Source: Akkermansia muciniphila
GTDB taxonomy: Bacteria; Verrucomicrobiota; Verrucomicrobiia; Verrucomicrobiales; Akkermansiaceae
DNA length: 64,000 nt
Assembly: GCF_040616545.1 (NCBI RefSeq)
Contig: NZ_CP156688.1
Location: 1,984,001-2,048,000 of the forward strand
Reading direction: 5' to 3'
Shown here: piece after piece, positions 11,836-47,476 of the stretch
Numbering within the stretch: position 1 is the first letter of the stretch
Layout of the letters: every line of letters begins with the position of its first letter
Notes under the pieces: model-generated
Told to the model about the DNA's origin: nothing
Databases searched by the model: none
The model's input: only the letters and a program-made list of their open reading frames with translations
Position numbers and translations under genes: made by a program

Positions 11836-14571
11836 TCAATAAGCGTAACTGACTCCGGCGTTAAACCGGTGGGCCGTGGCCTTGCTCCTTCCCTCAAACT
11901 CGTACCCCGCATACGTCCTCCAGCGCGCATTCAGCTGTAATGCGCTGTTCACGTTCACCCTCACCGCATTCCGGTCCGGAGACGTTCCCTGCGCTTCCCA
12001 CCGGTACCCGTTGAGCAGCCGCTCCGCCTGCGCTCCCGGGTTCTCACGGTACACGTCCGGCACGTAGCTCACCATCGCGCTGTTGATCCATTCCCTCCCT
12101 TTCAGCTCACTGCGGTGCGTCAGGCCCACCCCTACAGGCACGCTCATATTCTTCAGGCGCCCCTTTTCAAAGCGCCTCGCGTCCCAGCCCGTTTCCGTAA
12201 ACGCCTCCTGCGTCACGTCCGTATACTCCAGCCCCAGCATGACCTCCATCGCCACGGTCTCGTCTACCCGGCGGCTCCACTTCCCGGTCAGCGTTCCAAA
12301 CAGGGTTTCGTTGGTCCACTTGCCGCGGGACCGTCCGCCCGTATGGAAGGAATTCATCTTGTTGTCCGTCCAGCCATAGCCTGCCGTTCCCGTCACCAGC
12401 AGGGTATTCTTCCGGTTGAGAACCTTGTGCCAGCCCCCGTAGAGCATGCCGGTGCGCGTCTGCTGGTCAATATCCCCCGCAAAGTGGCGCCCGTTCATCT
12501 TGCCGTACAGGTCACCGAAGCCCAGGCCAAGAACGGTGTGGGAAGTGATTTTCCTGTCCGCTCCCACGGAATAGCCGCCGCCGTGGTAGTCAAAGCCGTC
12601 ACGGGTTCCCTCGGAAGCGTGGTTGAGGAAATCCCCCATGCCCTTGACCCAGTAGTTGTTTTCCGGTCCGGCGATAAAGCGCAGGGCATCCAGATGGCCC
12701 AGGGCGGCCCTGGACATCCCAAGAGCGTTGGCGGCGCTGGACCACATGGAGTTCATGGCCAGAGTCCCTGCCAGTTCCGGCAGGATGTCCCGGATAGCGG
12801 AGTCCTCGGCGGGAGTCCAGACCAGTTGGAGTTGTTCCGGGAAGCCGTCTCCGTCGGCATCCACCCACTGGTGGCTCCAGGAGCCCGTATAGGCATAGGG
12901 GCTGTCCACCCGGTCGGAGCCGGTAGCCAGTGAATGGGCGCCGGAGAAGTCATCCGTGTGGGTCTGGCTGGCGTCCGTCAGGATGATGAAGGTGCGCTGT
13001 TGCTCCCAGGAATTGTCCGCATAGAAATAATCGGCGGATATTCCCGTGTCCATAATCCCTATAGAGCCGCCCAGGGTGAAGGAACCGGAGGCGGAGATGG
13101 AGAGTCCGTTGGTGTTTGCCAGGGAGGCGGCTTCCTGCGCCTGCTTTTGCATGTCAAAAACAAAGCCGCGGGAGAGATCCACGTCCTTGGCATTGATGAA
13201 GGCGCTGGTCCCGGGACGAAGGACGGCGTCCCCGTTGGCGATGGTGAAGGAGGCGGCGTTGATGACGCTGCTCCCGGTGATTTCCAGGGTTCCGTGTTCC
13301 AGGGTCATGGAAGTATCGTCCCTGAGCTGGGAGTTGCCGAAGACGACATTGTGTTCCAGGATGAGGGTGCCGCCGTAGAGGGTGGTTTGGCCCTTGAAAT
13401 CGCTGTAGCGGCTGGCCACAAGGTGGGCGTCGTCCCCCTGGTAGAGTTCCCCGCTGAAGATGACGGTGCCGTCCGTAGCGTGGGAGATGCCGTCGTCGTC
13501 CGTGTATTGGTTGAGGGAGAGGGTGACGTTTTCCTTGATGATGCCGTAGGTTGAACTGGTGATGGGGTCATTGAAGCGAACCTCCCTTCCTTGGGCGGCT
13601 GCCAGTTGAAGATGGCTGGTTCCATATACATGAATGGCGTTGGCAACGCCGTTTTCCACGGAGAAGGAGCCGTCATTGTGTTGAGTGAACGTTCCCCCGG
13701 TCATGTTTCCGCTGAAGAAAACGTCATGAGTGAAGGCCAGAAAGCGGCTGAACTTGTCGGTATTGTTCCCATCCAGGAAAATAGCCCCGCCATTAACGAA
13801 AGCATAATTATTGGTGAATGAGGCTCCGTTCCTGATGGTTAGGGATATGTTGTTTCCTTTCATATAAATCGCTCCGCCGGCGCCATCGAAGGAGCCGTAG
13901 GCGTAATTGCCGGAAAAGGAAGCATCGTCTCCAAAAGTCAGTATTGTTGAATTGCTTCCACCCATATAGATTGCTCCGCCGTAGCTGGTGCCGTAGTTAA
14001 AGCCGTAGCCGTAGGCATGATTGCCGTGGAAGATTGCGTGGTCTCCCAGGGCCATTATTGAATGGTCTCCACTCACATAAATCGCCCCTCCGGCATTGAG
14101 GCCGGTGCCAGATAAAACGCTATTATTAAGGAATTGGACATGACCGGTGAGTTCCAGGGATATATCGCCGCCTTGCGCCTGAATCACCCCTCTGTTGGCA
14201 TTGGCCCAGATGACGGAATCCATATCCAGCGTATACTCTCCCTCTGTAAGATTGTACATGGGGTTTTTCCCCAGTCCGGATAAGTTCACCGTGCGCGGCG
14301 TGTCCGGATCATCCGAACGGAAGTTGACCGGAACGGTCAAGCCGGTCGTCAAGGAAGCGTCGTCATTATTCAGAACCACCGTATCCCCGGCAGCCAGGGA
14401 GCCGGAGCGGGCCAGATCATCCAGAGTGGTATAGATGTTATGGGCCGGGTCGGAAGTCTGGGCGGCGTCTACCATGAAATCCGCAGCGGAGGCGGAAAAG
14501 GACAAGGAAACGGGAATCAGCACGGAGGCCAGCAGGCTGCGGCGCAGCGGCAAAGGTATGGTCATTCTCAT
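11836..14571 (-). CDS. Autotransporter with Pmp-like GGAI/FxxN repeats
   Basis: This is a type V secreted surface protein of 911 residues. Residues 1-29 are a signal peptide ending SASA. The passenger (about 30-600) is a beta-helix and contains repeated GGAI[YF] motifs (GGAIYVSG, GGAIYMGG, GGAIYMKG, GGAIFLDG) alternating with FxxN motifs (FLNN, FHGN, FSGN, FTNN, FSGN). This is the hallmark pairing of chlamydial polymorphic membrane proteins. From about residue 640 an autotransporter beta-barrel follows, ending in Tyr (AGVSYAY). It is convergent with trpA and divergent from the giant autotransporter. Its promoter region carries inverted pair A, which in the sequenced orientation appears OFF. 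Confidence 0.93.
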   Translation of the reverse strand: MRMTIPLPLRRSLLASVLIPVSLSFSASAADFMVDAAQTSDPAHNIYTTLDDLARSGSLAAGDTVVLNNDDASLTTGLTVPVNFRSDDPDTPRTVNLSGLGKNPMYNLTEGEYTLDMDSVIWANANRGVIQAQGGDISLELTGHVQFLNNSVLSGTGLNAGGAIYVSGDHSIMALGDHAIFHGNHAYGYGFNYGTSYGGAIYMGGSNSTILTFGDDASFSGNYAYGSFDGAGGAIYMKGNNISLTIRNGASFTNNYAFVNGGAIFLDGNNTDKFSRFLAFTHDVFFSGNMTGGTFTQHNDGSFSVENGVANAIHVYGTSHLQLAAAQGREVRFNDPITSSTYGIIKENVTLSLNQYTDDDGISHATDGTVIFSGELYQGDDAHLVASRYSDFKGQTTLYGGTLILEHNVVFGNSQLRDDTSMTLEHGTLEITGSSVINAASFTIANGDAVLRPGTSAFINAKDVDLSRGFVFDMQKQAQEAASLANTNGLSISASGSFTLGGSIGIMDTGISADYFYADNSWEQQRTFIILTDASQTHTDDFSGAHSLATGSDRVDSPYAYTGSWSHQWVDADGDGFPEQLQLVWTPAEDSAIRDILPELAGTLAMNSMWSSAANALGMSRAALGHLDALRFIAGPENNYWVKGMGDFLNHASEGTRDGFDYHGGGYSVGADRKITSHTVLGLGFGDLYGKMNGRHFAGDIDQQTRTGMLYGGWHKVLNRKNTLLVTGTAGYGWTDNKMNSFHTGGRSRGKWTNETLFGTLTGKWSRRVDETVAMEVMLGLEYTDVTQEAFTETGWDARRFEKGRLKNMSVPVGVGLTHRSELKGREWINSAMVSYVPDVYRENPGAQAERLLNGYRWEAQGTSPDRNAVRVNVNSALQLNARWRTYAGYEFEGRSKATAHRFNAGVSYAY

Positions 14572-14616: not shown

Positions 14617-14633
14617 GCGGATTAGGAATCCGC
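14617..14633. repeat. Inversion site A1 (spacer AGG)
   Basis: GCGGATT-AGG-AATCCGC has perfect 7-base palindromic arms around three asymmetric bases. Its inner 15 bases are the exact reverse complement of site A2. Confidence 0.8.
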
Positions 14634-14883
14634 ATTTTTTCTTCAGTCGTAAAGAGAGACTGAAACAGGTATCAATCGGAAAAATAAGGGTAGTGTGATT
14701 GATGTTTGGAAATATGGATTTCTCTGTAAGTAACTATTTTTAAGTTCTTAAAAAGTTTGCCGCAGCAAAAAAGAAAAGATCCGGCATAGGGCTCTGAAAG
14801 GGGAGAGGGGTGCCGTTCAGTGTTCTATTTTAAAAGAGGAATTTACCTTAAAATAATCCCTATCATAATAGTAGGATTGACAT
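14634..14883. other. Putative invertible promoter segment A (250 bp)
   Basis: This is AT-rich, non-coding DNA between inverted sites A1 and A2, upstream of the Pmp-like autotransporter. It carries TTGACA at 14877-14882, one base from site A2 and pointing away from the autotransporter. Inversion would turn this box toward the gene and align it with the fixed -10 outside A1. The sequenced state is therefore read as OFF. No ORF of note is present. Confidence 0.7.
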
Positions 14884-14898
14884 CGGATTCCTAATCCG
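14884..14898. repeat. Inversion site A2 (spacer CCT)
   Basis: CGGATT-CCT-AATCCG is the exact reverse complement of the inner 15 bases of A1. TTGACA lies one base to its left, inside the segment. The outside flank (CACATG at the expected -10 position) offers no -10 box. Confidence 0.8.
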
Positions 14899-15439
14899 TC
14901 ACATGGCTGGAAATGGAGAAAATGGTCCTTGGTTCCCGGAAGGGATGAATATGTAAGTTACTTATGTTGAGCTTTGTAAGATGTTCATTGATGGAGGCCG
15001 GGAAAACGTGTTCATCCGGTTGAAGAGAAGCGGATCTTGAAGCCCGCAGGGTGAGTGAATCTGAAAGTGGCACGAATCAAACCTCCGTTCCCTGCTGGCC
15101 GTATTCCATTCAAGCTGTGGCCTATTGCCCCGCCGTGCCCGTGACGGGTACTCTGCCGGGCACAAGGTCTCCCGCCCCTTGTAAGACCTTGTAAGAATTC
15201 GTTCGGCTTCATCATTCACTTTTCGTGCGTTTCAGACGGATGCCGGTTCAGTGGTCCGTCTGTGCGAGGCCGTGCCCCGGAGTCCTGCTCAGACGCTTTA
15301 CAAAGCTGCGGGGGTGGGAAATTTTGAAAAATGGACCAGAGGCATATTCAGCCATTCTTCCTCAATCCCCAAGCAGTGTTCTTCATAACCTGTTGCAGGG
15401 CATCTTTTTATTTTATCCTGCCATTAAAAGGGCAAATGC
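14899..15439. other. Gene-free stretch between switches A and C
   Basis: About 540 bases lie between the two invertible segments. Short open frames occur on both strands, but none shows a ribosome binding site, a protein family motif or convincing codon use. I see no gene here. Confidence 0.5.
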
Positions 15440-15454
15440 GAATTCGCAATCCGC
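15440..15454. repeat. Inversion site C1 (spacer CGC)
   Basis: GAATTCGCAATCCGC is the exact reverse complement of site C2. Read on the minus strand it contains CGGATT-GCG-AATTCG, one mismatch from the CGGATT-NNN-AATCCG consensus. Confidence 0.75.
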
Positions 15455-15623
15455 CGGCTCTTTATTCACATATTATTCAAAATTCAATTATTAAATTTGA
15501 TTAATAATCAATGTGTTATCTATTTAAAAAATAATCCCTCCAGAGAAAACCGGAAAAATCTGGTTACCGGGAGCATTTCCCTTCCGGTAGAAAACCGTTG
15601 CAGCTGATTCTTTTCCTTTGACA
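15455..15623. other. Putative invertible promoter segment C (169 bp), ON orientation
   Basis: This is AT-rich, non-coding DNA enclosed by sites C1 and C2. TTGACA at 15618-15623 touches site C2 and points to the giant autotransporter. Inversion would move the box to the far end and point it away, switching the gene off. Confidence 0.7.
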
Positions 15624-15646
15624 GCGGATTGCGAATTCCTTATTTA
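15618..15646 (+). promoter_or_regulatory. Promoter of the giant autotransporter, assembled across site C2
   Basis: TTGACA (15618-15623), inside the invertible segment, is followed by exactly 17 bases, which are essentially the repeat C2, and then TATTTA (15641-15646) outside. The leader to the TTG start would be about 45 bases. Confidence 0.65.
15624..15638. repeat. Inversion site C2 (spacer GCG)
   Basis: GCGGATTGCGAATTC is the exact reverse complement of C1. The left arm CGGATT matches the family consensus; the right arm AATTCC has two differences from AATCCG. Confidence 0.75.
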
Positions 15647-15697
15647 TATTCACAATCATATTCCCCTTGCCGTGTTGTGGGAAAGGTTCTTTTATGA

Positions 15698-18600
15698 TTG
15701 AATAACCCATTAATTGTCAAACGTTACATGAAATTACACCTTCCCTTGAATCTGCTGGCCGCCCTGCTGACCTCCTTCTCAGGAGTAACTCTTGGAACTG
15801 CCACCTTTGCAGGAGTTTCTGGTCTTCTAATAACAGTATCACAGACTTATGCCGCGGATGTCGCTTTTAACGGGACACAGGTGAATGTGGCGGCGGGAGG
15901 GAACGCCACTTATGACATCGGCACCGTCACGGCTTCCACAACATTGCAATTTGCCGGAGCGGGCAACGCCACGATCACGAACCTGAACGGGGATGCCCCG
16001 GAAGCCGTGCTGACGGTGAACCGGGCCGCCAGCGGAGGCACGGCTCTCTCCACCCTCACCCTGAACGGGGCGGGCACCTTCAACGGAATCATTTCCCTCT
16101 ATTCCAACACGACAGGGGGAACGCAGAACAACATCCTGAACCTCAACCACGCGCTGGCGGCTCAGAACGCCACGATCAAGTTGGGCGGCTATGGGTATGC
16201 GACGGGCGCTTCCGTCCTGAAAGCGGGCGTGGACACCTCCATCAGCAAGCTGGAGCACAACAACGCCGCGGCCCTGATTACCGGGGAGGGAACCACGCTG
16301 ACCATCACCGGAGACTCCTCCTCCTACGGCGGCAGCTTTGGCGGCACCGTGACGGTTGATTACACGGGGGGCGGTACGTTCACCCTGGGCAATTCCGACA
16401 AGACCGTGGCCCTGGCCCCAGCCGCCGCCGCGGATGCCACCCTTAAAATCAGCAGCGGCACGCTCTCCCTTTTTTCCGGCAATGTCAACTGGTCCCAGAA
16501 GCTGGTCATGGGGGACGGCACTACGCTGACCGTACAGGACGGTCCGGCCGTTTCCGGATATTATAACTATGACGCCAACTCCATCAACGGGGATGGCTTC
16601 ACCTTCTCCGGAGCAGCCACGTTCGGCACCGGAGTGAACCTGACCACGCAGTACGGCAAGAATATCAAATTCACGGGCGTGCTTACGGCGGCCTCCGGAT
16701 TCTCCATCAGCGGCGCCGACAGCGAGTACACTTACTACACCCTCACCGGTACGGAAAACCAGATCGGCGGCACCATCGCCATCACGCGTAATTCAACTTC
16801 CCTGGGCATCAACGCTTCCGGGTCCCTCGGCACCGCCGCCGTCACTACTTCCTCCGGCAGCCAGTACCTCACTTATTACGGTACGGCGGGAGAAGCGGCG
16901 GACGTCATTGACAACTCCATCACGGGCGCGGGCAACTTCGTGGCGCAATCAGGCTGGGTGCACCTTTCCGAAAACGTAGCGCTTACGGGAACCTACACCG
17001 TCAACTCCGGTGCCGTACTTTCCAAGGCGGGCGACATCAATGCCGTCCTTGCGGGGGGCAGGCTGGATGCGGGCAGTGGAACCATGAACGTGACTGGGCT
17101 GACGGGGAACGGAACCATCTCCGCCTCCGCAGGGACCATGAATTTCCAGAACGCCGTCACGGTGGGGGAAACGATGGGCATCCTCGCCAACGGCACGGGG
17201 ACGATTACGGGCGATGTAACCGTGGACGGCGGCCGCCTGTACTACACCTCCATGGACAACGTGGGCACCGTGCTTCAGAACGTGACGCTGACTTCCGGCC
17301 TGATTGATTTCTCCGGTTTCCAGGAATTCCAGGACCTGTTCGGTTCCGAAGCCCTGGTGAATACCTCCTACAACCTGGGCGTTGACCTGGGGACGGGCTT
17401 CACGCTGGCGGACATTGACGCCTCCCTGTACACCATCACCACCGTTGACGGGAAAACGGTTATTACCTTCACCGGGTCCGGCGCGTATGATACCGCATGG
17501 GATTCCGCCTGGGGGCTGGGAAGCGCCCCCTCCTCCGGCGCCGGAACGCTGGCGGACCAGCAGGCGCTGGCCCTGTACAACATCCGCGCCGCATCCATGC
17601 AGGAGGGCTTCGGCTCCGTGAACGTCGTGACCGGAACGGGAGACCTGACGGGAGTCACTCTGGCTGGCGGCTATTACAATACGGCAACCAATGCAACGGC
17701 CACGGAAATCACCACCGGCATCTGGACGGACGTTCTGGCGGGCAACTACAACCTGATCATCGGCGGCAGTTATGCCAACAACTGGAGCGGCACCGGCAAG
17801 TGGAACATCACGGGAGATGTCCATACCCAGATTCAGGGGGATACCTCCGTCAACTGGGTGGTAGGCGGCAACTACAAGGACGGCCAGGGGGCCGGCATCA
17901 CGGGGAATATTTACGTGTCCGTGGACGGCAATGCCGTGGTGAAGGGGAGCGTGATAGGCGGCGGTACGGCGGCCCATAACTCCACCAACACCATTGACGG
18001 CAGCACCTTCGTCGTTGTGCGCAGCATGCAGAGCGTCACGGATGAAGCCGTCTCGCTCAATTCCGTAGCCAGGGGCTTCATCATCGGCGGCAGCGCTTAT
18101 GAAGCCAACTCCACTTCCAGCGCCACTATCACCGGAAGCACCAATGTGACGATTGACCTGGGGACTGCCACGGGCACCTTCGTCAAGAGCATCGTGGGCG
18201 GTTCCTACTCGGGCAGTTCAGGAACGTATACGATCAACGGAGACTCCAACGTCAGCATCACCGCGGGCAGTGACGCCATCTTTACCGGGGCCATTTACGG
18301 CGGCGGCTACGGCACTGCCGGAACTTCCACGGTCAAGGGCAATTCCAGCCTGACCCTGGACGGCGGCGCTTACACGGGAGCCCTTTATGCGGGCGGCGGC
18401 GGCGCAAGGTCCGCCGTGAACGGGAACGCCACCCTCACCGTCAAAAAAGCCGCGTTCCGCACGGGTAGCACGCTGGGTGTGTCGGAAGGCACGGTGGGAG
18501 GCACGTCCTCCCTTCTTCTGGGCGGTTACGGCAATACGGTGGACCAGGCCATCTCCTTCTCCAATACGGTCATCACCGGCTTCGACATCGTGACCATGTT

Positions 18601-21600
18601 CCAGAACTCCTTCTTTACGGGGAGCCTGAACGTGGACGGCTCCAGCACGCTGGCGCTGGCCGGGGGAGCCGGAACGGGAATCAATGTGAATGGCGCCTTC
18701 GCCCTCTCCGCGGAAGGGGAATTGAATCTGGACCTTACCGGATTTGGCGCCTTGACGGACGGAATGTCCGTGCTCTCCACCACCGGGCTGACCAACATCT
18801 CTTCCATCAAGGCCGTCTTTGCGGACGGCGTGGCGGGAACCATCACCGTTTCCAACAACGGCAGGGACCTTGTTTTCACCGCGGAAACCCTCCTTCTGTG
18901 GGCAGGTGGCGAAAATGGCGTCTGGAGCGCGGAAAACATCTGGACGGATGGAGGCGCTCCCGCCACGTATGCGGACGGCCTGGCGGTTTCCTTTGCAGAC
19001 CAGGCCGGAGTCGCCACCTCCGTGGTGCAGCTTGATTCCGAGGTCTCCCCCGGTTCCATGCTGGTCCGCAACTCCACCACCCGCTATGAACTGACGGGGA
19101 CGGGCGCAATCGCCAATACCGCCGTCACCAAGGAAGGCACGGGAACCCTGGTGCTGGGCTCCGCTTCCGTGCTCGGCACGGGAACCACCGTAGCCGTGAA
19201 CCAGGGCGTTCTGGCGTTCGGGTATGATACGGACCTGCCTGCCACGGGCATCACCTGGGGCGCGGGTTCCTTCCTGGGAGCGGCCAACGGCGCGACGGTC
19301 ACGGTGAATCTGGGAACCGTGACCAACCCGGCCTTCTCCCTTGCCGCGGATAACAACTCTTTCATCAATCTGGTAACTCCTTCCGACCTTACCTTCGGCA
19401 ATAACATCACGGGAGCCGGTTCCGTCCGGAAAACCGGTACGGGGCTGCTGAAATTGACGGGGGCCAACTCCGGCCATCTGATCGTGCAGGAAGGCAACGT
19501 CCAGATAGGGGGCGGCTCTACCGCCATCAATTGGGGGAGCGCCGGTTCCTCCGTCACCTTGCAGAACGGCACGTCCCTGATCATTGCGGGCAACAGCGCC
19601 CACCACACCATCGGCTCTGACCTGATTCTGGGCACGGCGGCGTCTGATGCGGTCTCCGTGAAATGGGTGGACGCCTCCCAGGCAAACGCCACCAATTACC
19701 AGCATAACTTTACGGGAACCGTGACCGTCAACGGGGCGGCTTCCCTGGTAGGCCGGGACAACTGGGCCAAGGAAATGGGCTTCACCGGAACGCTCACAGG
19801 CGCAGGCTCCCTGACTTACAGCCGCGGAGCTGGTGACGGCAGGTACAACTCCAACGGCAAACTCATCATCGGTGGCGACGCCTCCGGATTTACCGGCATG
19901 ATCACCATGAACGCCTCCAACGGGTACAGCACGGGGCTTGACATGCGCACCTCCATGGCGCAGGGCGGGGTGACCCTCACGTCCGGCACGGATACCACGG
20001 GATTCGCCTTCATGCGCGTGCTGGGAGATATTGAAATCGCCTCCCTGGACGGCACGGCCAACTCCCAGGTGGGCGCCGTGGGCGGCGCACGCACGCTGAC
20101 GGTGGGTTCCGGCACGTACAACGGGACGCTCACGGACCAGGGCGTTGCCATTGCCTACGGAGCCACCACCATCTCCTATGACACCACCGGAGCCCTGTCC
20201 CTGACCAAGGTCAGCGATGAAACGCTGACGCTGGGCGGTACGGTCAGTTATACCGGGCTCACGGACATCCGCGGAGGAACGCTGGCCCTGACTTCCACCG
20301 GAGCCACCGCTCTGGGGAATATCACGATGGCCGCCAACACCCGCATGACTACCGCCGGCGCGCTGAATCTGGCGAACAGCTCCACCCTGACGATGGACAT
20401 CAGTTCCTCCATGGAGGTGGGCGGCGCCTTTGGCGCCGGAACCTTCACCCTCACCCTGAACGGCCTTGAAGGCATTACGGAAGCGGGGGAATACACGCTC
20501 ATCTCCGCGGCAAGCGGGCTTGACGCCGGAAGCGCCATCTTCAACTGGGCCGGATACACCGGAGACGAAACGCTGATTTACGAACTGGTCCAGACGGGCA
20601 CCACCCTCAAGCTGGTGGTGACTTCCGCCGGGGACGTGTGGATCTGGCAGGGAACGGAAGGCATGACCTGGAGCGACACGAACACGGGCGCCCAGTGGGG
20701 CATTGACGGCTCTGCGGATACGGCCGCCGGGCAGAACCTGGTCTTCAACAGCTCCGGTGCTGGCACCGTTACCCTGTCCGGGGCGGTGAATCCGGCCTCC
20801 ATCACGGTGAACAACGCCGCGGGCAGCGACTATGTCTTCGCCTCGGACGGCACCGGGAAAATTGCCCAGGGCACGCTGACCAAGCGCGGCGAAGGCAAGC
20901 TGACCCTGAATCTGGACAACACGGGCTGGGCGGGAGCCATCTCCATCCAGCAGGGCGAGCTGGTGGCTCAGGTCGCCAACTCCCTGGGTTCCGGAGCCGT
21001 CACCGTTACGGGCGGCACGCTCACGCTGGCAACGGCGGACGTCCAGCCGGGCATGGGCATGATCAACCTGCAGGGCGGCAGCCTCAATCTGGCTTCCGGC
21101 GCCTTCGCCACGGCATTCACCGCGGATAACATGACGTGGACGGACGGCTCCCTCATCCTGGGTGAAAACGTGACGGCTACCGCCGCCAAGGCCCTGGCCA
21201 ACGGAAAAACCGTGGAGCTGGCCTCCGGCTCCGTTCTGACGGTCAGCGGCGCCAATGACAACACGGCGCTCAACCTGAACGCCTCCGGGACCGGTACCAT
21301 TTCCGTGGGGCTGGGAACCAACTACGGAGCCAATGTCCTGAACATGAGCACGGAATTCCAGGGAACCCTGTCCGTGACAGCCGGGTACTTCCAGTTGAAC
21401 AACGTGACCATGGGAGCGGACGGCACCGTGAACCTGGCGGATTCCAATGTCCGTACGGAATGGAACGGGACGGCCGGGGGAACCTTTGCCAATGACATGG
21501 TCTTTACGGGCAACCAGATTTTTGCCACCAAGGACTTCACCCTCAGCGGCGATTTGAGCGGCACGGCGTTCTCCACCCAGGGCGCGGGCAACATCACCCT

Positions 21601-24600
21601 GACGGGCGGCGTCAACCTGGACGGCCAGCTCAAGGTGCACCGCGGCACGGTCACGGTGAACTCCGCCAATGTGACCAAGCTGGGGGACAGCATAGACATC
21701 CAGAACAACTCCACGCTGGCCTTTGCCCGTGACTTCTCCTATGGCGGCGTCATCAGCGGCACGGCCGGCGGCACGGTATCCGTGAACTCCGGAACGCTGG
21801 AACTCACCGGGGCTAACACCTTCCTGGGCGCCCTCTCCATTGCAGGCGGCGCCACGGCGCGGCTGGGTGAAGGAAGCGCCTGGGCCGGAACCCTCTCCGG
21901 AGCCGGTTCCCTGGTCATTGACACCACCGGGAATATAACGCTGGCGGCTGGCAACACCGGATTTACCGGGGCCACCACCCTTTCCGGAACGGGCACCGTC
22001 ACTCTGGCGGGGGCTGATTCCCTGGGATCCGGGCGGGTCACCGTCAACAACGGCGTTCTTGACCTGGCCTCCCAGAATGCGGCCAACGTCATCCTGATCA
22101 CGAAGGGAAGCCTGGCAAACGCGGGCGCCAAGACCACCGGAAACGTGGAAGTGGCAGCCTCCGCCGGAACGCAGGGCACCCTGAACACCATCAATCTGGG
22201 AGGCTTGTCCGGCAGTCTCGTCAGCTCCATCGTCATGGAGGACTTCTCCCGGCTTACCGGGATCTCCGGCCCTCTGGACATGACGGGCAAAACGGTGACG
22301 CTCAAGCTGGACAGCGGCAGCCTGACCGCGGGCGGAGCAACCGGGCAGGGCGTCATTGACGCGGACAGCCTGACGCTCTCCGCCGCCACCACGACCATCA
22401 ACCTCAGCAACCAGGGCGTTCTGGACCTGCTCTCCGCCAACCGGGATTCCGCGGACGGCGTGGGACTGGTGCTGACCACGGGAACGCTGACGGTGGACAA
22501 TTACAAGCAGATCGGCTTCTCCCCGCTGCTGGCCTCCCTGGGCTACGCGGTGACGGAAGTCCTGGGTGCGGACGGAACGCTGATGGTCAGCGGCAATACG
22601 GACCTGGTCTACCTGGTGGATACCACCCCCAATTCCGACAACCCCAACATCACCGACTACGCCGCCTTGGACCCCTACAAGGCCGTGGGCATCAACGGAA
22701 CCACGCTTAATATAAGCCTGGACGGAGCCCCGGACGCCTCCCGGAACGGAGACGGCCTGAAAGTTAGCAACCTGATCGGCAGCAACGGCGCCCTGGTGGT
22801 GACGAATACGGCGGCGGATGCGGCGGCCAACCATGCCGTGGTGGACCTGATCCAGAACGTGGACGCCGGCAGCAACAGCTACGGCGGCACCATCAGCGGC
22901 GACCATGTGGACTTCATTAAGAAAGGCGCGGAAACCCTCACGGTGGAAGGCAGCTTTACGGGTAATGACTCCAAGCTGAGCTCCACGGAAGGGAACATTG
23001 TCCTGAACGGCACGGGCAACAGCCTCACCACGCTGGAACTGGCCGGCGGAGACATCACGCTGGGCGGCAGGAATGACGGCGCTTCCCGTGTAACGACGGT
23101 GGAAAACCTGGCCTCCGGCACGGGCGGCGGCACCCTGGACCTGGGTAAAGGCGCCCAGCTCGTAGTCACCGGCCAGCAGGCCGGCAGCCATGTGACGGAC
23201 GTGACCATCTCCGGGGACGGCACGCTGACCCTGGGCGGGGACGGAACGGACTCCTCCCTGACGCTGGGCAACGGCTCCTCCCTGGACGGCGTTCTGCTGG
23301 ACGTCCGTGAAGGTTCCGCGCTGTCCACCGCGGCCGGTTCCGTGAACACGGTCTCCGGCCTGACGGGCGGAGGCGCCCTGAAGCTGAGCGGTGCGGAAAT
23401 GACGGTGGACTCCTCCGCCTCCCATACCTTCACCGGTACGCTGGACGGGGCTTCCGGAACGCTCAACTTCAAATCCGGAAACGGCAGCGTGCAAACCATC
23501 AAGGGCGCGGGCAACGCCGGCTACAACCTGAACGTGACCGGCGGCGGTGCGCTGACCCTGGCCGGAGCCCCGGCGGAAGGGGGCAATCCGGCGCAGGCGG
23601 CCTACAAGGGCATCACCGTGAACGGCGGCACGCTCAACATCGGCAGCGCAACTGATCCCAAGACCCAGCTCACGCTGGGCACGGACGGCCTGAGCGTAAC
23701 GGGGAACAGCACGGTGACCATCACCACCTCCTCCACTACGGTGGATGGGCTGGGCAACCCGTTCGTCACGTCCAGCGGAAACATCACGCTGGGTGACGGA
23801 ACGGGAGAAGTCACGCTGGTCATGAGCAACCTGGATACCCTGGTCACCGGGAATACGGAAACGCTGAACATGGAACTGTTCAAGACGACGGACGGCGCCC
23901 TGGTCTCCCTGGGAGACAACGTCACCCTTCAGGACATGATCCTCAGCTCCCTGTATGAAAACCTGCACCTGGCCACCAATGACAGCATGACGGCCATCAT
24001 CCTCACTGGAACGGCGCGCACGGAAAACATCTTCCGTGACTCCTCCCTCACGCGGAATGCGTCCACCGGGGCTGACCTGCTCTGGAACTCCCGCTACCAC
24101 ATGGAGGAGGGAACCACCCTGCGCGACCTGTACACCTCCGTTCTGCTCTCCCAGAACAGCGGGGACTACTCCGGAGCGGCACGCAAGCTGGCCGCCGCCG
24201 CGGGCAGTACGGTCACCAGCCTGGGTATTGCCCAGCGGGACTCCCTGCGTGACCAGATGGGCTGGATACGCAACCGCGTGGCGCAGATGGGCGTGAATCC
24301 CGCATACATTAATGAAGACATGCCGTACTTCCATATGTGGATGCAGGGCACCGGGTCTTACGCCAAGCTGGACGCCAAGGGGGATGAGAGCGGCTACAAG
24401 CTCTCCACCTGGGGCGGAACGGTGGGCATGGACGTGGATATCAACGACCACCTCACCGCGGGCGCGGCGTTCACGGCCAACTACGGAAGCCTGACCGCGA
24501 ACGCGGCGGATACGGCGGACGGAGACCTGGACAGCTACTACGTCAACCTGTTCGCCCGCTACCAGTCCCGCAAGTGGTCCCACCTGCTGATCCTGACGGG

Positions 24601-25177
24601 CGGCTGGAATGACGCCAAACTCACGCGCACGGTGGACTACGGCACAGGCTCCTACCAGGCCCACGGCAGCACGACCGGGTCCGGCTTCGGCGCCATGTAT
24701 GAACTGGCGTACGACATCGCCCTCAATGAAGACAAGAGCGTGATTCTCCAGCCCCTGTTCAACGCCTCCATCGTGACGACGCGCATGGACGGTTACAGTG
24801 AAAGCGGTTCCGCCGGAAACGCCGGCCTGAGGGTGGAAGAGCAGAAGCTGACGACGGCGGCCGTTGCGGTGGGCGCCAGGCTTTCCGGCCTCCTTGGCTC
24901 CAACCTCTTCGGGCGGGAAGCCTTGGGAGAAGTCCGGGCGAATGTCTCCCAGGACATGGGCGACCGCCGCGGGCAGGCCAATGTGGGCTTCCTGGCGGAC
25001 CCCTCCTACACGCGCCCGGTATACGGCGCCAAGGTGGGGGCTACGGCCTTCCAGGTTGGCGTGGGCCTGAGCATCCCGGTGGGCACGCAGAGCGTCATCT
25101 TTGCGGACGGGAATGCGGACATCCGCAGCGGCTCCAGCTCCATCAACGGAAGCATCGGCTACCGCTACAACTTCTAA
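15698..25177 (+). CDS. Giant autotransporter adhesin
   Basis: This 3159-residue type V secreted protein has an extended signal region (about residues 1-52, ending QTYA-AD). A very long Gly/Thr/Ser/Asn-rich beta-helical passenger follows, with many autotransporter-associated strand repeats of the form GTGTLVLGS, GTGLLKLTGAN, GEGKLTLNLDN and GTLELTGANTF. From about residue 2870 to the end is an autotransporter barrel (HMWMQGTGSYAKLDAKG onward) finishing in Phe (IGYRYNF). It is probably a surface adhesin or mucus-binding protein; no catalytic motif was seen. The start could be TTG 15698, with AAAGG about 11 bases upstream, or ATG 15728. Expression is likely phase-variable through switch C. Confidence 0.93.
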   Translation: MNNPLIVKRYMKLHLPLNLLAALLTSFSGVTLGTATFAGVSGLLITVSQTYAADVAFNGTQVNVAAGGNATYDIGTVTASTTLQFAGAGNATITNLNGDAPEAVLTVNRAASGGTALSTLTLNGAGTFNGIISLYSNTTGGTQNNILNLNHALAAQNATIKLGGYGYATGASVLKAGVDTSISKLEHNNAAALITGEGTTLTITGDSSSYGGSFGGTVTVDYTGGGTFTLGNSDKTVALAPAAAADATLKISSGTLSLFSGNVNWSQKLVMGDGTTLTVQDGPAVSGYYNYDANSINGDGFTFSGAATFGTGVNLTTQYGKNIKFTGVLTAASGFSISGADSEYTYYTLTGTENQIGGTIAITRNSTSLGINASGSLGTAAVTTSSGSQYLTYYGTAGEAADVIDNSITGAGNFVAQSGWVHLSENVALTGTYTVNSGAVLSKAGDINAVLAGGRLDAGSGTMNVTGLTGNGTISASAGTMNFQNAVTVGETMGILANGTGTITGDVTVDGGRLYYTSMDNVGTVLQNVTLTSGLIDFSGFQEFQDLFGSEALVNTSYNLGVDLGTGFTLADIDASLYTITTVDGKTVITFTGSGAYDTAWDSAWGLGSAPSSGAGTLADQQALALYNIRAASMQEGFGSVNVVTGTGDLTGVTLAGGYYNTATNATATEITTGIWTDVLAGNYNLIIGGSYANNWSGTGKWNITGDVHTQIQGDTSVNWVVGGNYKDGQGAGITGNIYVSVDGNAVVKGSVIGGGTAAHNSTNTIDGSTFVVVRSMQSVTDEAVSLNSVARGFIIGGSAYEANSTSSATITGSTNVTIDLGTATGTFVKSIVGGSYSGSSGTYTINGDSNVSITAGSDAIFTGAIYGGGYGTAGTSTVKGNSSLTLDGGAYTGALYAGGGGARSAVNGNATLTVKKAAFRTGSTLGVSEGTVGGTSSLLLGGYGNTVDQAISFSNTVITGFDIVTMFQNSFFTGSLNVDGSSTLALAGGAGTGINVNGAFALSAEGELNLDLTGFGALTDGMSVLSTTGLTNISSIKAVFADGVAGTITVSNNGRDLVFTAETLLLWAGGENGVWSAENIWTDGGAPATYADGLAVSFADQAGVATSVVQLDSEVSPGSMLVRNSTTRYELTGTGAIANTAVTKEGTGTLVLGSASVLGTGTTVAVNQGVLAFGYDTDLPATGITWGAGSFLGAANGATVTVNLGTVTNPAFSLAADNNSFINLVTPSDLTFGNNITGAGSVRKTGTGLLKLTGANSGHLIVQEGNVQIGGGSTAINWGSAGSSVTLQNGTSLIIAGNSAHHTIGSDLILGTAASDAVSVKWVDASQANATNYQHNFTGTVTVNGAASLVGRDNWAKEMGFTGTLTGAGSLTYSRGAGDGRYNSNGKLIIGGDASGFTGMITMNASNGYSTGLDMRTSMAQGGVTLTSGTDTTGFAFMRVLGDIEIASLDGTANSQVGAVGGARTLTVGSGTYNGTLTDQGVAIAYGATTISYDTTGALSLTKVSDETLTLGGTVSYTGLTDIRGGTLALTSTGATALGNITMAANTRMTTAGALNLANSSTLTMDISSSMEVGGAFGAGTFTLTLNGLEGITEAGEYTLISAASGLDAGSAIFNWAGYTGDETLIYELVQTGTTLKLVVTSAGDVWIWQGTEGMTWSDTNTGAQWGIDGSADTAAGQNLVFNSSGAGTVTLSGAVNPASITVNNAAGSDYVFASDGTGKIAQGTLTKRGEGKLTLNLDNTGWAGAISIQQGELVAQVANSLGSGAVTVTGGTLTLATADVQPGMGMINLQGGSLNLASGAFATAFTADNMTWTDGSLILGENVTATAAKALANGKTVELASGSVLTVSGANDNTALNLNASGTGTISVGLGTNYGANVLNMSTEFQGTLSVTAGYFQLNNVTMGADGTVNLADSNVRTEWNGTAGGTFANDMVFTGNQIFATKDFTLSGDLSGTAFSTQGAGNITLTGGVNLDGQLKVHRGTVTVNSANVTKLGDSIDIQNNSTLAFARDFSYGGVISGTAGGTVSVNSGTLELTGANTFLGALSIAGGATARLGEGSAWAGTLSGAGSLVIDTTGNITLAAGNTGFTGATTLSGTGTVTLAGADSLGSGRVTVNNGVLDLASQNAANVILITKGSLANAGAKTTGNVEVAASAGTQGTLNTINLGGLSGSLVSSIVMEDFSRLTGISGPLDMTGKTVTLKLDSGSLTAGGATGQGVIDADSLTLSAATTTINLSNQGVLDLLSANRDSADGVGLVLTTGTLTVDNYKQIGFSPLLASLGYAVTEVLGADGTLMVSGNTDLVYLVDTTPNSDNPNITDYAALDPYKAVGINGTTLNISLDGAPDASRNGDGLKVSNLIGSNGALVVTNTAADAAANHAVVDLIQNVDAGSNSYGGTISGDHVDFIKKGAETLTVEGSFTGNDSKLSSTEGNIVLNGTGNSLTTLELAGGDITLGGRNDGASRVTTVENLASGTGGGTLDLGKGAQLVVTGQQAGSHVTDVTISGDGTLTLGGDGTDSSLTLGNGSSLDGVLLDVREGSALSTAAGSVNTVSGLTGGGALKLSGAEMTVDSSASHTFTGTLDGASGTLNFKSGNGSVQTIKGAGNAGYNLNVTGGGALTLAGAPAEGGNPAQAAYKGITVNGGTLNIGSATDPKTQLTLGTDGLSVTGNSTVTITTSSTTVDGLGNPFVTSSGNITLGDGTGEVTLVMSNLDTLVTGNTETLNMELFKTTDGALVSLGDNVTLQDMILSSLYENLHLATNDSMTAIILTGTARTENIFRDSSLTRNASTGADLLWNSRYHMEEGTTLRDLYTSVLLSQNSGDYSGAARKLAAAAGSTVTSLGIAQRDSLRDQMGWIRNRVAQMGVNPAYINEDMPYFHMWMQGTGSYAKLDAKGDESGYKLSTWGGTVGMDVDINDHLTAGAAFTANYGSLTANAADTADGDLDSYYVNLFARYQSRKWSHLLILTGGWNDAKLTRTVDYGTGSYQAHGSTTGSGFGAMYELAYDIALNEDKSVILQPLFNASIVTTRMDGYSESGSAGNAGLRVEEQKLTTAAVAVGARLSGLLGSNLFGREALGEVRANVSQDMGDRRGQANVGFLADPSYTRPVYGAKVGATAFQVGVGLSIPVGTQSVIFADGNADIRSGSSSINGSIGYRYNF

Positions 25178-31900: not shown

Positions 31901-31915
31901 CGGATTTGGAATCCG
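31901..31915. repeat. Inversion site B1 (spacer TGG)
   Basis: CGGATT-TGG-AATCCG is the exact reverse complement of site B2. TTGACT, on the minus strand at 31917-31922, lies one base inside the segment and points left. Confidence 0.8.
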
Positions 31916-32216
31916 GAGTCAACCCAAAAATTTGATTAAAAATCATTTAATGCAAATTTATCCCGGCATTTCCGGGCGCAGGATACCGGGAACAGGGCTT
32001 GCGGCCTTTCTGCGGAAGACCTGGGAAACATTTCTTTATAAGGGCAAGGAGGTTCTTATTTCCGGCAGCGCGGGCATCAGAAAATACGGTGGAAGGCCAT
32101 CTGCCACAGCTTGAACGGAAGCGGCCAACAGGGAGCGGAGGGCAACCCGGTCTTCGTGCCTGAAACGTCTGGGGAAGCGGAGCGGAGGGTTATTTTTCCA
32201 TCTCCGGCCCATGTAA
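31916..32216. other. Putative invertible promoter segment B (301 bp), OFF orientation
   Basis: This is non-coding DNA enclosed by B1 and B2, upstream of the PEP-CTERM gene. The only -35-like box next to a site is TTGACT on the minus strand at 31917-31922, pointing away from the PEP-CTERM gene, and the outside flank of B1 has no -10 box. After inversion this box would precede TATTGA at 32233-32238 by exactly 17 bases. No convincing gene was seen inside. Confidence 0.7.
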
Positions 32217-32231
32217 CGGATTCCAAATCCG
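32217..32231. repeat. Inversion site B2 (spacer CCA)
   Basis: CGGATT-CCA-AATCCG is the exact reverse complement of B1, 76 bases before the PEP-CTERM start codon. Confidence 0.8.
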
Positions 32232-32232
32232 A

Positions 32233-32238
32233 TATTGA
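32233..32238 (+). promoter_or_regulatory. Fixed -10 half of switch B
   Basis: TATTGA begins one base outside B2. It has no -35 partner as sequenced and would gain TTGACT at a 17-base spacing if segment B were inverted. Confidence 0.45.
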
Positions 32239-32307: not shown

Positions 32308-33021
32308 ATGAAGAAAACATTATTCATCTCCATCCTCTCTCTTGGATTGGGAACAGCCGCTTCCGCCGCAACTGTTTTCACCAGCCAGGAGGAGTATTCC
32401 CTGGGCTCTGGCCCGTCCATTAATAATTCAGCTCTGAGCGGCTTGATTGAAAGTCCCTCCAGCAATACCAGCCCCGGTACGGGGACCATCATGATGTGGG
32501 TAACTTTGGATTCCCTGCCGTCAAGCCTTTCTTCCCTGATATCTGTTGAAACTAAAAAATCCAATGGCGGACATTCCGGGTCTTTGAATGGCTGGGGCGT
32601 GATGGTGGGCACGGATGGCCGGCTGCAAATTTGCCAGCAGACCGTCAACGCTTCCAACTCCGTGACTTCCGCCAGTTCCAAGGGTACCACGTCTGCCAGC
32701 ATTGGAGCAGGGGAAGCATTTCATATTGCCATTAGTACGGCAGGTGGCCGCAATTCCGGCAATTTCACCTTGTATATCAACGGAGAGGAAGTCCTGACCG
32801 CCTCCGGATTTGGTTTGAATGGCAATGCTTTCTCCGAGTTGATCCTGGGTTCTTCCGGCCTTTCCGGTACGGTTTCCGGCCTGACTGTGGATGATGCGGT
32901 TCTGGATGCCGGCTCCATCAAATCCATCCTGGAGCAGACCCGGCCCGTTCCGGAACCGGCCACGGTCTCTTTGGGGCTGGTGGGGCTGGCTGCATTAATG
33001 ATGCGCCGCCGCCGGAGCTGA
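32308..33021 (+). CDS. PEP-CTERM sorted surface protein, LamG-like
   Basis: This 237-residue protein has a signal peptide (MKKTLFISILSLGLGTAASA). A jelly-roll-like middle (WVTLDSLPSSLSSLISVET, GWGVMVGTDGRLQIC, GNFTLYINGEEV) resembles concanavalin/LamG carbohydrate-binding folds. The C-terminus is a full PEP-CTERM signal: VPEPATVSLG, a hydrophobic helix, and the basic end RRRRS. Such proteins are processed by exosortase and reach the surface or exopolysaccharide layer. Exosortase itself is not in this window. No Shine-Dalgarno sequence is evident. It lies behind putative phase switch B. Confidence 0.9.
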   Translation: MKKTLFISILSLGLGTAASAATVFTSQEEYSLGSGPSINNSALSGLIESPSSNTSPGTGTIMMWVTLDSLPSSLSSLISVETKKSNGGHSGSLNGWGVMVGTDGRLQICQQTVNASNSVTSASSKGTTSASIGAGEAFHIAISTAGGRNSGNFTLYINGEEVLTASGFGLNGNAFSELILGSSGLSGTVSGLTVDDAVLDAGSIKSILEQTRPVPEPATVSLGLVGLAALMMRRRRS

Positions 33022-47072: not shown

Positions 47073-47088
47073 CGGATTGTGAATCCGG
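47073..47088. repeat. Inversion site D1 (spacer GTG)
   Basis: CGGATT-GTG-AATCCGG is the exact reverse complement of site D2 over 16 bases. Confidence 0.8.
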
Positions 47089-47240: not shown

Positions 47241-47256
47241 CCGGATTCACAATCCG
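47241..47256. repeat. Inversion site D2 (spacer CAC)
   Basis: CCGGATT-CAC-AATCCG is the exact reverse complement of D1. One base outside it, TATGAC (47258-47263) occupies the same -10 position as at the other switches. Confidence 0.8.
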
Positions 47257-47476
47257 GTATGACGCGTTAGGCATTGCGGGTGTGCGGCTGACTTTAAATT
47301 GTCCTCATTTGCATGTTTCCGGCCACGGAATGGAAAATGCAGGAATCACCAGTTTTCCATGGACGGAGTGGAGGAAGGGAATTTATTGCCGCGGAGGTCT
47401 TTTCCTCCACGGCTGTGCGCTGTCTGAAGCCGGTCTTGCCTTGGAAGAACCGGGGAACGATGATCCATTCAACGTT

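Follow-up and report, generated by a model that had tools for sequence, protein, structure and literature searches.

Paired sites and promoter-like hexamers in the window

The window analysed here, a stretch of 64,000 nucleotides (G000:C1:1984001-2048000), comes from a genome of 3,055,113 bp in a single contig, G000, which belongs within the Akkermansia muciniphila complex. It carries four pairs of inverted 15-bp sites, designated A to D. In pair C, the distal recombination site (CGAATTCGCAATCCG, 15439-15453, plus strand) and the gene-proximal site (CGGATTGCGAATTCC, 15625-15639, plus strand) bound an invertible segment whose inner part (15454-15624) ends on the right with the -35 hexamer TTGACA (15618-15623, plus strand), one base inside the segment. 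A single G, the gene-proximal site and a single T then lead to TATTTA (15641-15646, plus strand), the candidate fixed -10, one base outside the segment. The site and the base on each side of it together make a promoter spacer of 17 bp, so that this pair is already joined; the model reads it as ON, with a predicted start at about 15652-15653. The gene 3' of it (15728-25177, plus strand; the ATG at 15728 is our own reading) encodes an autotransporter-like protein of 3149 amino acids with passenger-associated transport repeats.

Pairs A and B are unjoined. In pair A the gene-proximal site (CGGATTCCTAATCCG in the minus-strand reading, 14618-14632) is followed on the minus strand by TACTAG (14616-14611), the putative fixed -10, with a predicted start at about 14604, while the TTGACA (14877-14882, plus strand) lies at the distal end, beside the distal site (14884-14898, plus strand), and is directed away from the gene. 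The model state is OFF, and the gene predicted to be under the control of this pair codes for an autotransporter of 911 amino acids (11836-14571, minus strand). In pair B the -35 is TTGACT (31922-31917, minus strand), again at the distal end, beside the distal site (31901-31915, plus strand), and the candidate -10, TATTGA (32233-32238, plus strand), lies outside the gene-proximal site (32217-32231, plus strand); the model state is likewise OFF. The gene 3' of pair B (32308-33021, plus strand) encodes a laminin-G-like protein of 237 amino acids with a PEP-CTERM motif; PEP-CTERM proteins are enriched near invertons of the Akkermansia repeat group according to the excerpts of PMC11892184. The segment at 31901-32231 of the window and another at G000:C1:1915159-1915489, 100 kb apart, have the same spacing, the same centre and near-identical inner ends. 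They perhaps represent a recent duplication, and could also recombine mutually.

The first-pass annotation had claimed that in pairs A, B and C a -35 box lies exactly one base inside the segment, at one end only, and that one base outside the gene-proximal site there is a TA-starting hexamer (TACTAG, TATTGA and TATTTA, respectively). Recomputation reproduced all letters and offsets. In the common layout the 15-bp site CGGATTNNNAATCCG is separated by a single base from the -35 on one side and from the TA-starting hexamer on the other, and joining the halves gives a -35, 17 bases and a -10, as had been proposed; this geometry recurs genome-wide and across species. For pair D the claim held in part: TATGAC is present at the expected position (47258-47263), one base outside the right site (47242-47256, plus strand), but TTGAC is found at neither inner end. 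Pair D, the left site of which is CGGATTGTGAATCCG (47073-47087, plus strand), therefore does not fully fit, and is an incomplete or decayed switch.

Under the proposed mechanism, TTGAC at the segment end, one base from the recombination site, would be the upstream half of a promoter of sigma-70 type, and the -10 and the start point would keep their place outside the segment, a single base past the gene-proximal site. With the segment ON, the recombination site would fill the 17-bp spacer and the two halves would form a promoter; in the OFF state inversion would have put the -35 at the far end, usually facing no -10.

Recombination sites and the candidate invertase

The 15-bp site, with at most one mismatch, has 122 matches per strand in the genome, against 0 for the control, and the composite pattern TTGAC-NN-site, with up to three mismatches, has 71 + 48 against 1 + 0 for the reversed-pattern control. 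In the window alone, the site with up to two mismatches is matched 12 times, against a mean of 4.3 after shuffling. With such an excess over reversed-pattern and shuffled controls, the site pattern is not a product of chance. In the search of viral contigs, the exact composite pattern came up in a single one, from IMG/VR (L219, 6445-6466).

The G000 sample comprised 56 stretches (and L109), taken from the matches listed for the TTGAC-containing pattern with up to three mismatches and for the site alone. Pairing the sites of the 56 stretches, of the window and of one further locus gave 53 pairs among the matches listed, with a site-to-site spacing of 143-432 bp; before counting, site pairs separated by more than 700 bp were excluded, as was a single duplicate located at a tandem site. 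At one locus (L015) two overlapping tandem copies of the site, at G000:C1:1359426 and 1359439, occupy one end of a segment that has no -35.

Pair finding for the main counts demanded matching centres, a demand that was dropped for the analyses of centre identity and of segment content. The central triplet was then equal within the pair in all 51 neighbouring pairs of G000 (inverted repeats of sites with at most one mismatch, 100-450 bp apart) and in 87 of 87 pairs of other genomes. There are 25 different centres among the 51 pairs, and the centre differs in 19 of 59 orthologs; the free centre of TTNNNAA thus drifts between species and is identical within a pair. Because a three-base centre is of odd length, it is never self-complementary, and each site keeps a direction. 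Among 145 pairs, in which orthologs are not independent, deviations from the consensus were common to both partners in 7 of 7 cases at positions 5-11 and in 6 of 80 elsewhere, and the centre was mismatched within the pair once. From this pattern we infer a 7-bp strand-exchange region, TTNNNAA, which would fit a tyrosine recombinase; serine recombinases use a 2-bp overlap.

Four tyrosine-recombinase matches were identified in G000 at E <= 0.001. Two of them are XerC-like and XerD-like, slightly under the equivalog cut-offs, and the third adjoins phage-looking genes (our own reading of the neighbours). The fourth is a protein of 363 amino acids (G000:C1:2196297-2197385), beside a speA-like gene (again our own reading), whose residues 1-362 are 100% identical to a recombinase of A. 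muciniphila strain CSUN-56 AmIII. The composite pattern, with at most one mismatch, abounds in 14 of 76 genomes of the genus (23-51 matches) and is matched 0-4 times in the other 62. An ortholog at least 90% identical to the 363-aa protein occurs in 12 of the 76, all of them among the 14 site-rich genomes (Fisher test, p = 3e-12, ignoring relatedness). Some homolog is present in 75 of the 76, the site-rich G020 and G055 having distant ones only: identity is 43-46% for the best homolog in G020, for that in G065 and for two of the five in G055. The speA-like neighbour is absent beside these homologs in the stretch taken; G004 has both. This correlation suggests that the invertase is probably the 363-aa tyrosine recombinase. 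Site-poor genomes such as G009, G032 and G041 hold up to 20 homologs of this protein (about 40% identity where listed), which may serve many locus-specific switches with other repeats.

The sole serine-recombinase match of the genome belongs to the Mpi family (G000:C1:2343210-2343827, L111; NF009949, 3e-101) and adjoins, in our reading, an IF3-like gene. Mpi is a known global invertase of Bacteroides. It also figures among the references of PMC11892184. It is possible, if somewhat doubtful, that this protein or XerC/XerD, and not the 363-aa protein, is the enzyme, an alternative that is compatible with a split promoter and is favoured by the presence of the Mpi-family protein in G000 and by the richness in sites of G020 and G055 with no close ortholog of the 363-aa protein. 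For Mpi itself, the identity within pairs spans an odd 7-bp centre, unlike the overlap of serine recombinases, and the distribution is unfavourable: present in 4 of the 76 genomes and in 2 of the 14 site-rich ones, it is missing from the other 12 and from G027, a genome of the same species. This absence from most site-rich genomes led us to reject an Mpi-like serine recombinase as the common enzyme.

Distribution of the putative -35 and -10 halves in the genome and the genus

Across the 53 G000 pairs, TTGAC or a one-base variant of it is found at one end in 47, at neither end in 6 and at both in 0, and it stands at the exact one-base offset in 44; for strict TTGAC the figures are 43 pairs, 40 of them at the exact offset. 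An absence of TTGAC from this offset in other copies, which the first-pass annotation had named beforehand as a result that would speak against it, was looked for and did not occur. Rows entered the -35 logo if they had 4 or more of the 6 letters of TTGACA (43 of 53), so that the strength of the logo at those letters is partly a matter of choice; at this loose level 2 rows count at both ends. The sixth base of TTGACA shows no conservation across segment ends.

Of the 106 outer flanks, 36 have TA separated from the site by a single base (offset 1), while any other offset counts 4-12. This leaves 18 of the 53 pairs with no TA at offset 1, some of which have it one base off; when offsets 0-2 are taken together, TA is found in 40 of 53 pairs, against 12-24 for other three-base blocks. 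The putative -10 is reliably TA only, T at the last position not being enriched (T in 31 of 90, A in 35). With gene calls made blind to the -10, 33 of 52 pairs have one clear gene side (the 19 ambiguous ones were left out), and TA at offset 1 is significantly more frequent in gene-side than in distal flanks (18 of 33 vs 4 of 33, p = 5e-4). In 31 pairs both a single TA flank and a single -35 end are present; the model would read 12 of these as ON and 19 as OFF.

The same position stands out in other genomes. G004, G022, G023 (which we take to be A. muciniphila MucT), G024 and G008 were sampled in part (18 of 36 matches in G004, 26 of 42 in G022, 15 exact ones of 31 plus three others in G023, 5 of 28 in G024). 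In their 67 pairs, 51 of the 134 flanks show TA at offset 1, and 3-16 at any other offset; these pairs were chosen almost entirely by TTGAC, so that their -35 frequency is not independent, whereas their TA frequency is. In G027, where 28 pairs were chosen by the site alone (26 stretches from the best 100 of 184 matches), there is one -35 end in 26 of 28, strict TTGAC in 22, and 16 of the 56 flanks have TA at offset 1, the other offsets counting 2-7. In G020, which we take to be A. glycaniphila and whose stretches span its 23 listed matches (L197 and L204 being near-identical copies), 18 of the 42 flanks carry TA at offset 1, against 1-7 at other offsets; a single -35 end is present in each of the 21 scored pairs, those with no TTGAC having been skipped. 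Counted by segment (n = 132), TA is found on the near outer flank only in 40, on the far one only in 52, on neither in 37 and on both in 3 (Fisher test, p = 4.5e-9). TA one base from the site is also weakly enriched at the far inner end, which has no -35 (27 of 132); the promoter model does not need this.

A modest signal is also found at the expected start point. A pyrimidine-purine step occupies the predicted -1/+1 in 46 of 108 distinct TA flanks (43%), as compared with 23% at later positions (p = 6e-6). The opposite flanks give 17%, and the 191 flanks that lack TA give 28% as a whole; within TA flanks, the second-highest position reaches 0.35, against 0.43 at the predicted place. Of the window pairs, A has the step at the exact position, B and C do not. 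According to excerpts of a Cappable-seq study of A. muciniphila (PMC4782308), the transcripts of this organism follow -35 plus TATAAT-like signals and show the same start motif. Upstream of TTGAC, the 136 distinct ends have in common a T-rich run and a CARAAWTTT-like stretch, which may be an UP element; this reading is tentative, because the other inner end of the segments is also A-rich, with such a stretch about 20 bases in.

Natural inversions and the fixed outer flank

Pair A has a paralog in the same genome, L109, whose flanks are the same and whose -35 adjoins TACTAG, the ON arrangement, whereas pair A is OFF. When inverted in silico, pair A aligns with L109 end to end (segment identity 0.95 inverted vs 0.56 direct). 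Flank-based orthologs of G000 in other genomes form 63 pairs, of which 59 can be scored, and the -35 is at opposite ends in 12 of the 59, three of these cases coming from the same-species G027. Segment alignment supports inversion strongly for L008/L116, L012/L112 and L012/L178 (0.96-0.99 inverted vs 0.58-0.61 direct), well for L008/L182, L008/L155 and L025/L141 (0.78-0.80 vs 0.54-0.60) and weakly for L047/L146, L040/L149 and L010/L095, and does not bear it out for L013/L099, L016/L100 and L040/L137, the last being a G027 case. Six of the 12 are thus strongly or well supported, three weakly and three not; the control rows of these alignments, being uncorrected for strand, were set aside. As judged from these alignments, segments bounded by CGGATT..AATCCG do invert in nature.

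The outer TA does not follow the segment. Where G000 has a TA flank, the ortholog has TA on the same flank in 43 of 43 comparisons. In 28 interspecies TA flanks, flank positions 1 and 2 are identical in 28 of 28, as compared with 43-89% at other positions; in 46 flanks with no TA, the same two positions are identical in 65% and 76%. As the -35 end differs between orthologs and the TA flank is kept, the -35 moves and the TA stays, as the first-pass annotation had supposed. A promoter whose upstream half moves while its -10 and start stay is a split one. The sequence comparisons show directly the geometry, the inversions in nature, the TA that stays fixed and the pair-specific site centres, and the joined halves are predicted to drive transcription.

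It is improbable that TTGAC and the outer TA are instead parts of an extended site for the recombinase or an accessory protein, which would set polarity and not promote transcription. The near invariance of TTGAC next to a free sixth base would suit such a site, as would the weak enrichment of TA at the far inner end; yet both ends recombine and the other inner end has no TTGAC, and a feature of the recombinase should not be limited to one outer flank, favour the gene side, stay put when the segment flips or precede a pyrimidine-purine signal at +1, all of which the TA does. More improbable still is an ordinary invertible promoter, complete within each segment and with the end TTGAC incidental, as in the inverton-embedded promoters of which PMC11892184 speaks in its excerpts and in fimbrial switches, which, by the quoted text of PMC5903667, contain just a promoter: TTGAC followed by TANNNT 16-18 bases after the hexamer lies inside 2 of 140 segments vs 3.75 when shuffled, promoter-like pairs in general inside 36 of 140 vs a mean of 53.8 (100 single-base shuffles), the outer TA is almost confined to one flank, where it is conserved, and the TTGAC faces outward a single base away from the site, which places its -10 beyond the segment. 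The view of the first-pass annotation that this geometry differs from that of the usual whole-promoter invertons is borne out by these counts, and its split-promoter interpretation is supported. We consider it highly likely that each locus is a split-promoter switch, with predicted transcription from the joined halves; the 363-aa recombinase is the probable enzyme and the 7-bp region the putative place of exchange.

Bacteroides has Mpi- and Tsr-type switches of capsule and surface proteins that form one genome-wide set with a common repeat, in which the promoter lies wholly within the segment; Mpi is a serine recombinase. The Akkermansia segments are likewise a genome-wide set with a common repeat, but with a split promoter and sites that point to a tyrosine enzyme. 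In the hybrid or junction promoters of insertion sequences (IS911 circles), it is a DNA rearrangement that places an outward-facing -35 at the proper distance from a -10. These work alike, a likeness in manner of working and not of homology, and they arise by transposition and not by reversible inversion at a fixed site. The fimS element of E. coli is a short segment flipped by tyrosine recombinases, at one locus with the recombinases adjoining. The fim promoter is inside the segment (excerpts of PMC5903667), whereas here it is split. A complete internal promoter such as the classic invertible promoter has is not what we found, the -35 ending one base from the site.

Jiang et al. 2019 is said to be the founding paper on Akkermansia invertons. 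The repeat family and its inversion are already published: the same inverted repeat in the same genus, CGGATT..AATCCG, is quoted as the motif of Akkermansia invertons in PMC13343947, and corresponds to inverton group 138 of PMC11892184. As far as the excerpts go, the latter cites Jiang 2019 for an Akkermansia promoter motif, treats promoters as inverton-embedded, in contrast with the split promoter here, and reports that the Akkermansia motif fell short of its promoter test. The excerpts of PMC13343947 and PMC11892184 hold no description of a split promoter, a fixed outer -10 or a role of the site as spacer, and the two mentions of a promoter in PMC13343947 do not, in its excerpts, describe the geometry; the literature searched, to which Jiang 2019 did not belong, yielded no split geometry in the parts available. 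The cps1 inverton of MucT, a member of this repeat family, has been shown experimentally to flip and to track capsule ON/OFF (mBio 2026, the passages given in PMC13343947). The likely cps1 element of G023 has sites at 2526110 and 2526277, a distal -35 and TAATTA one base outside the proximal site, and the lipoprotein ORF downstream has a 76% match to a polysaccharide-export protein of G000. As the -35 is at the distal end, the model predicts OFF in that reference; the orthologous element of G000 (L051) has the ON arrangement. An OFF-oriented split promoter (G000:C1:2277900-2278090, L027) lies upstream of a second capsule-export-lipoprotein-like gene, 69% identical to the MucT one. The published coordinates of one MucT inverton, as excerpted from PMC11892184, coincide with none of the sites with up to two mismatches in G023, which probably reflects another numbering.

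The flipping of a half-promoter segment appears to act as the ON/OFF switch of many genes, several of which encode surface proteins. On the sequence evidence, this split form of the invertible promoter is real and conserved, and its driving of transcription is predicted. Since the promoter spacer would be the recombinase site itself, one might tentatively speculate that invertase and RNA polymerase keep each other off every ON promoter, that the invertase is a global repressor of ON genes as well as the switch, that active transcription protects the ON state against inversion and that the TTNNNAA centre is a private address which keeps about fifty switches separate. If the split promoter is true, the ON or OFF state of about fifty loci in a leading gut commensal would be readable from sequence alone, and looking within Akkermansia invertons for a whole promoter would be misdirected. 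It would also offer engineers a compact natural design, in which a -10 placed beside a site could make a gene switchable. The binding of recombinase and of RNA polymerase would be coupled at a single 17-bp spot, making a feedback between transcription and switching directly testable.
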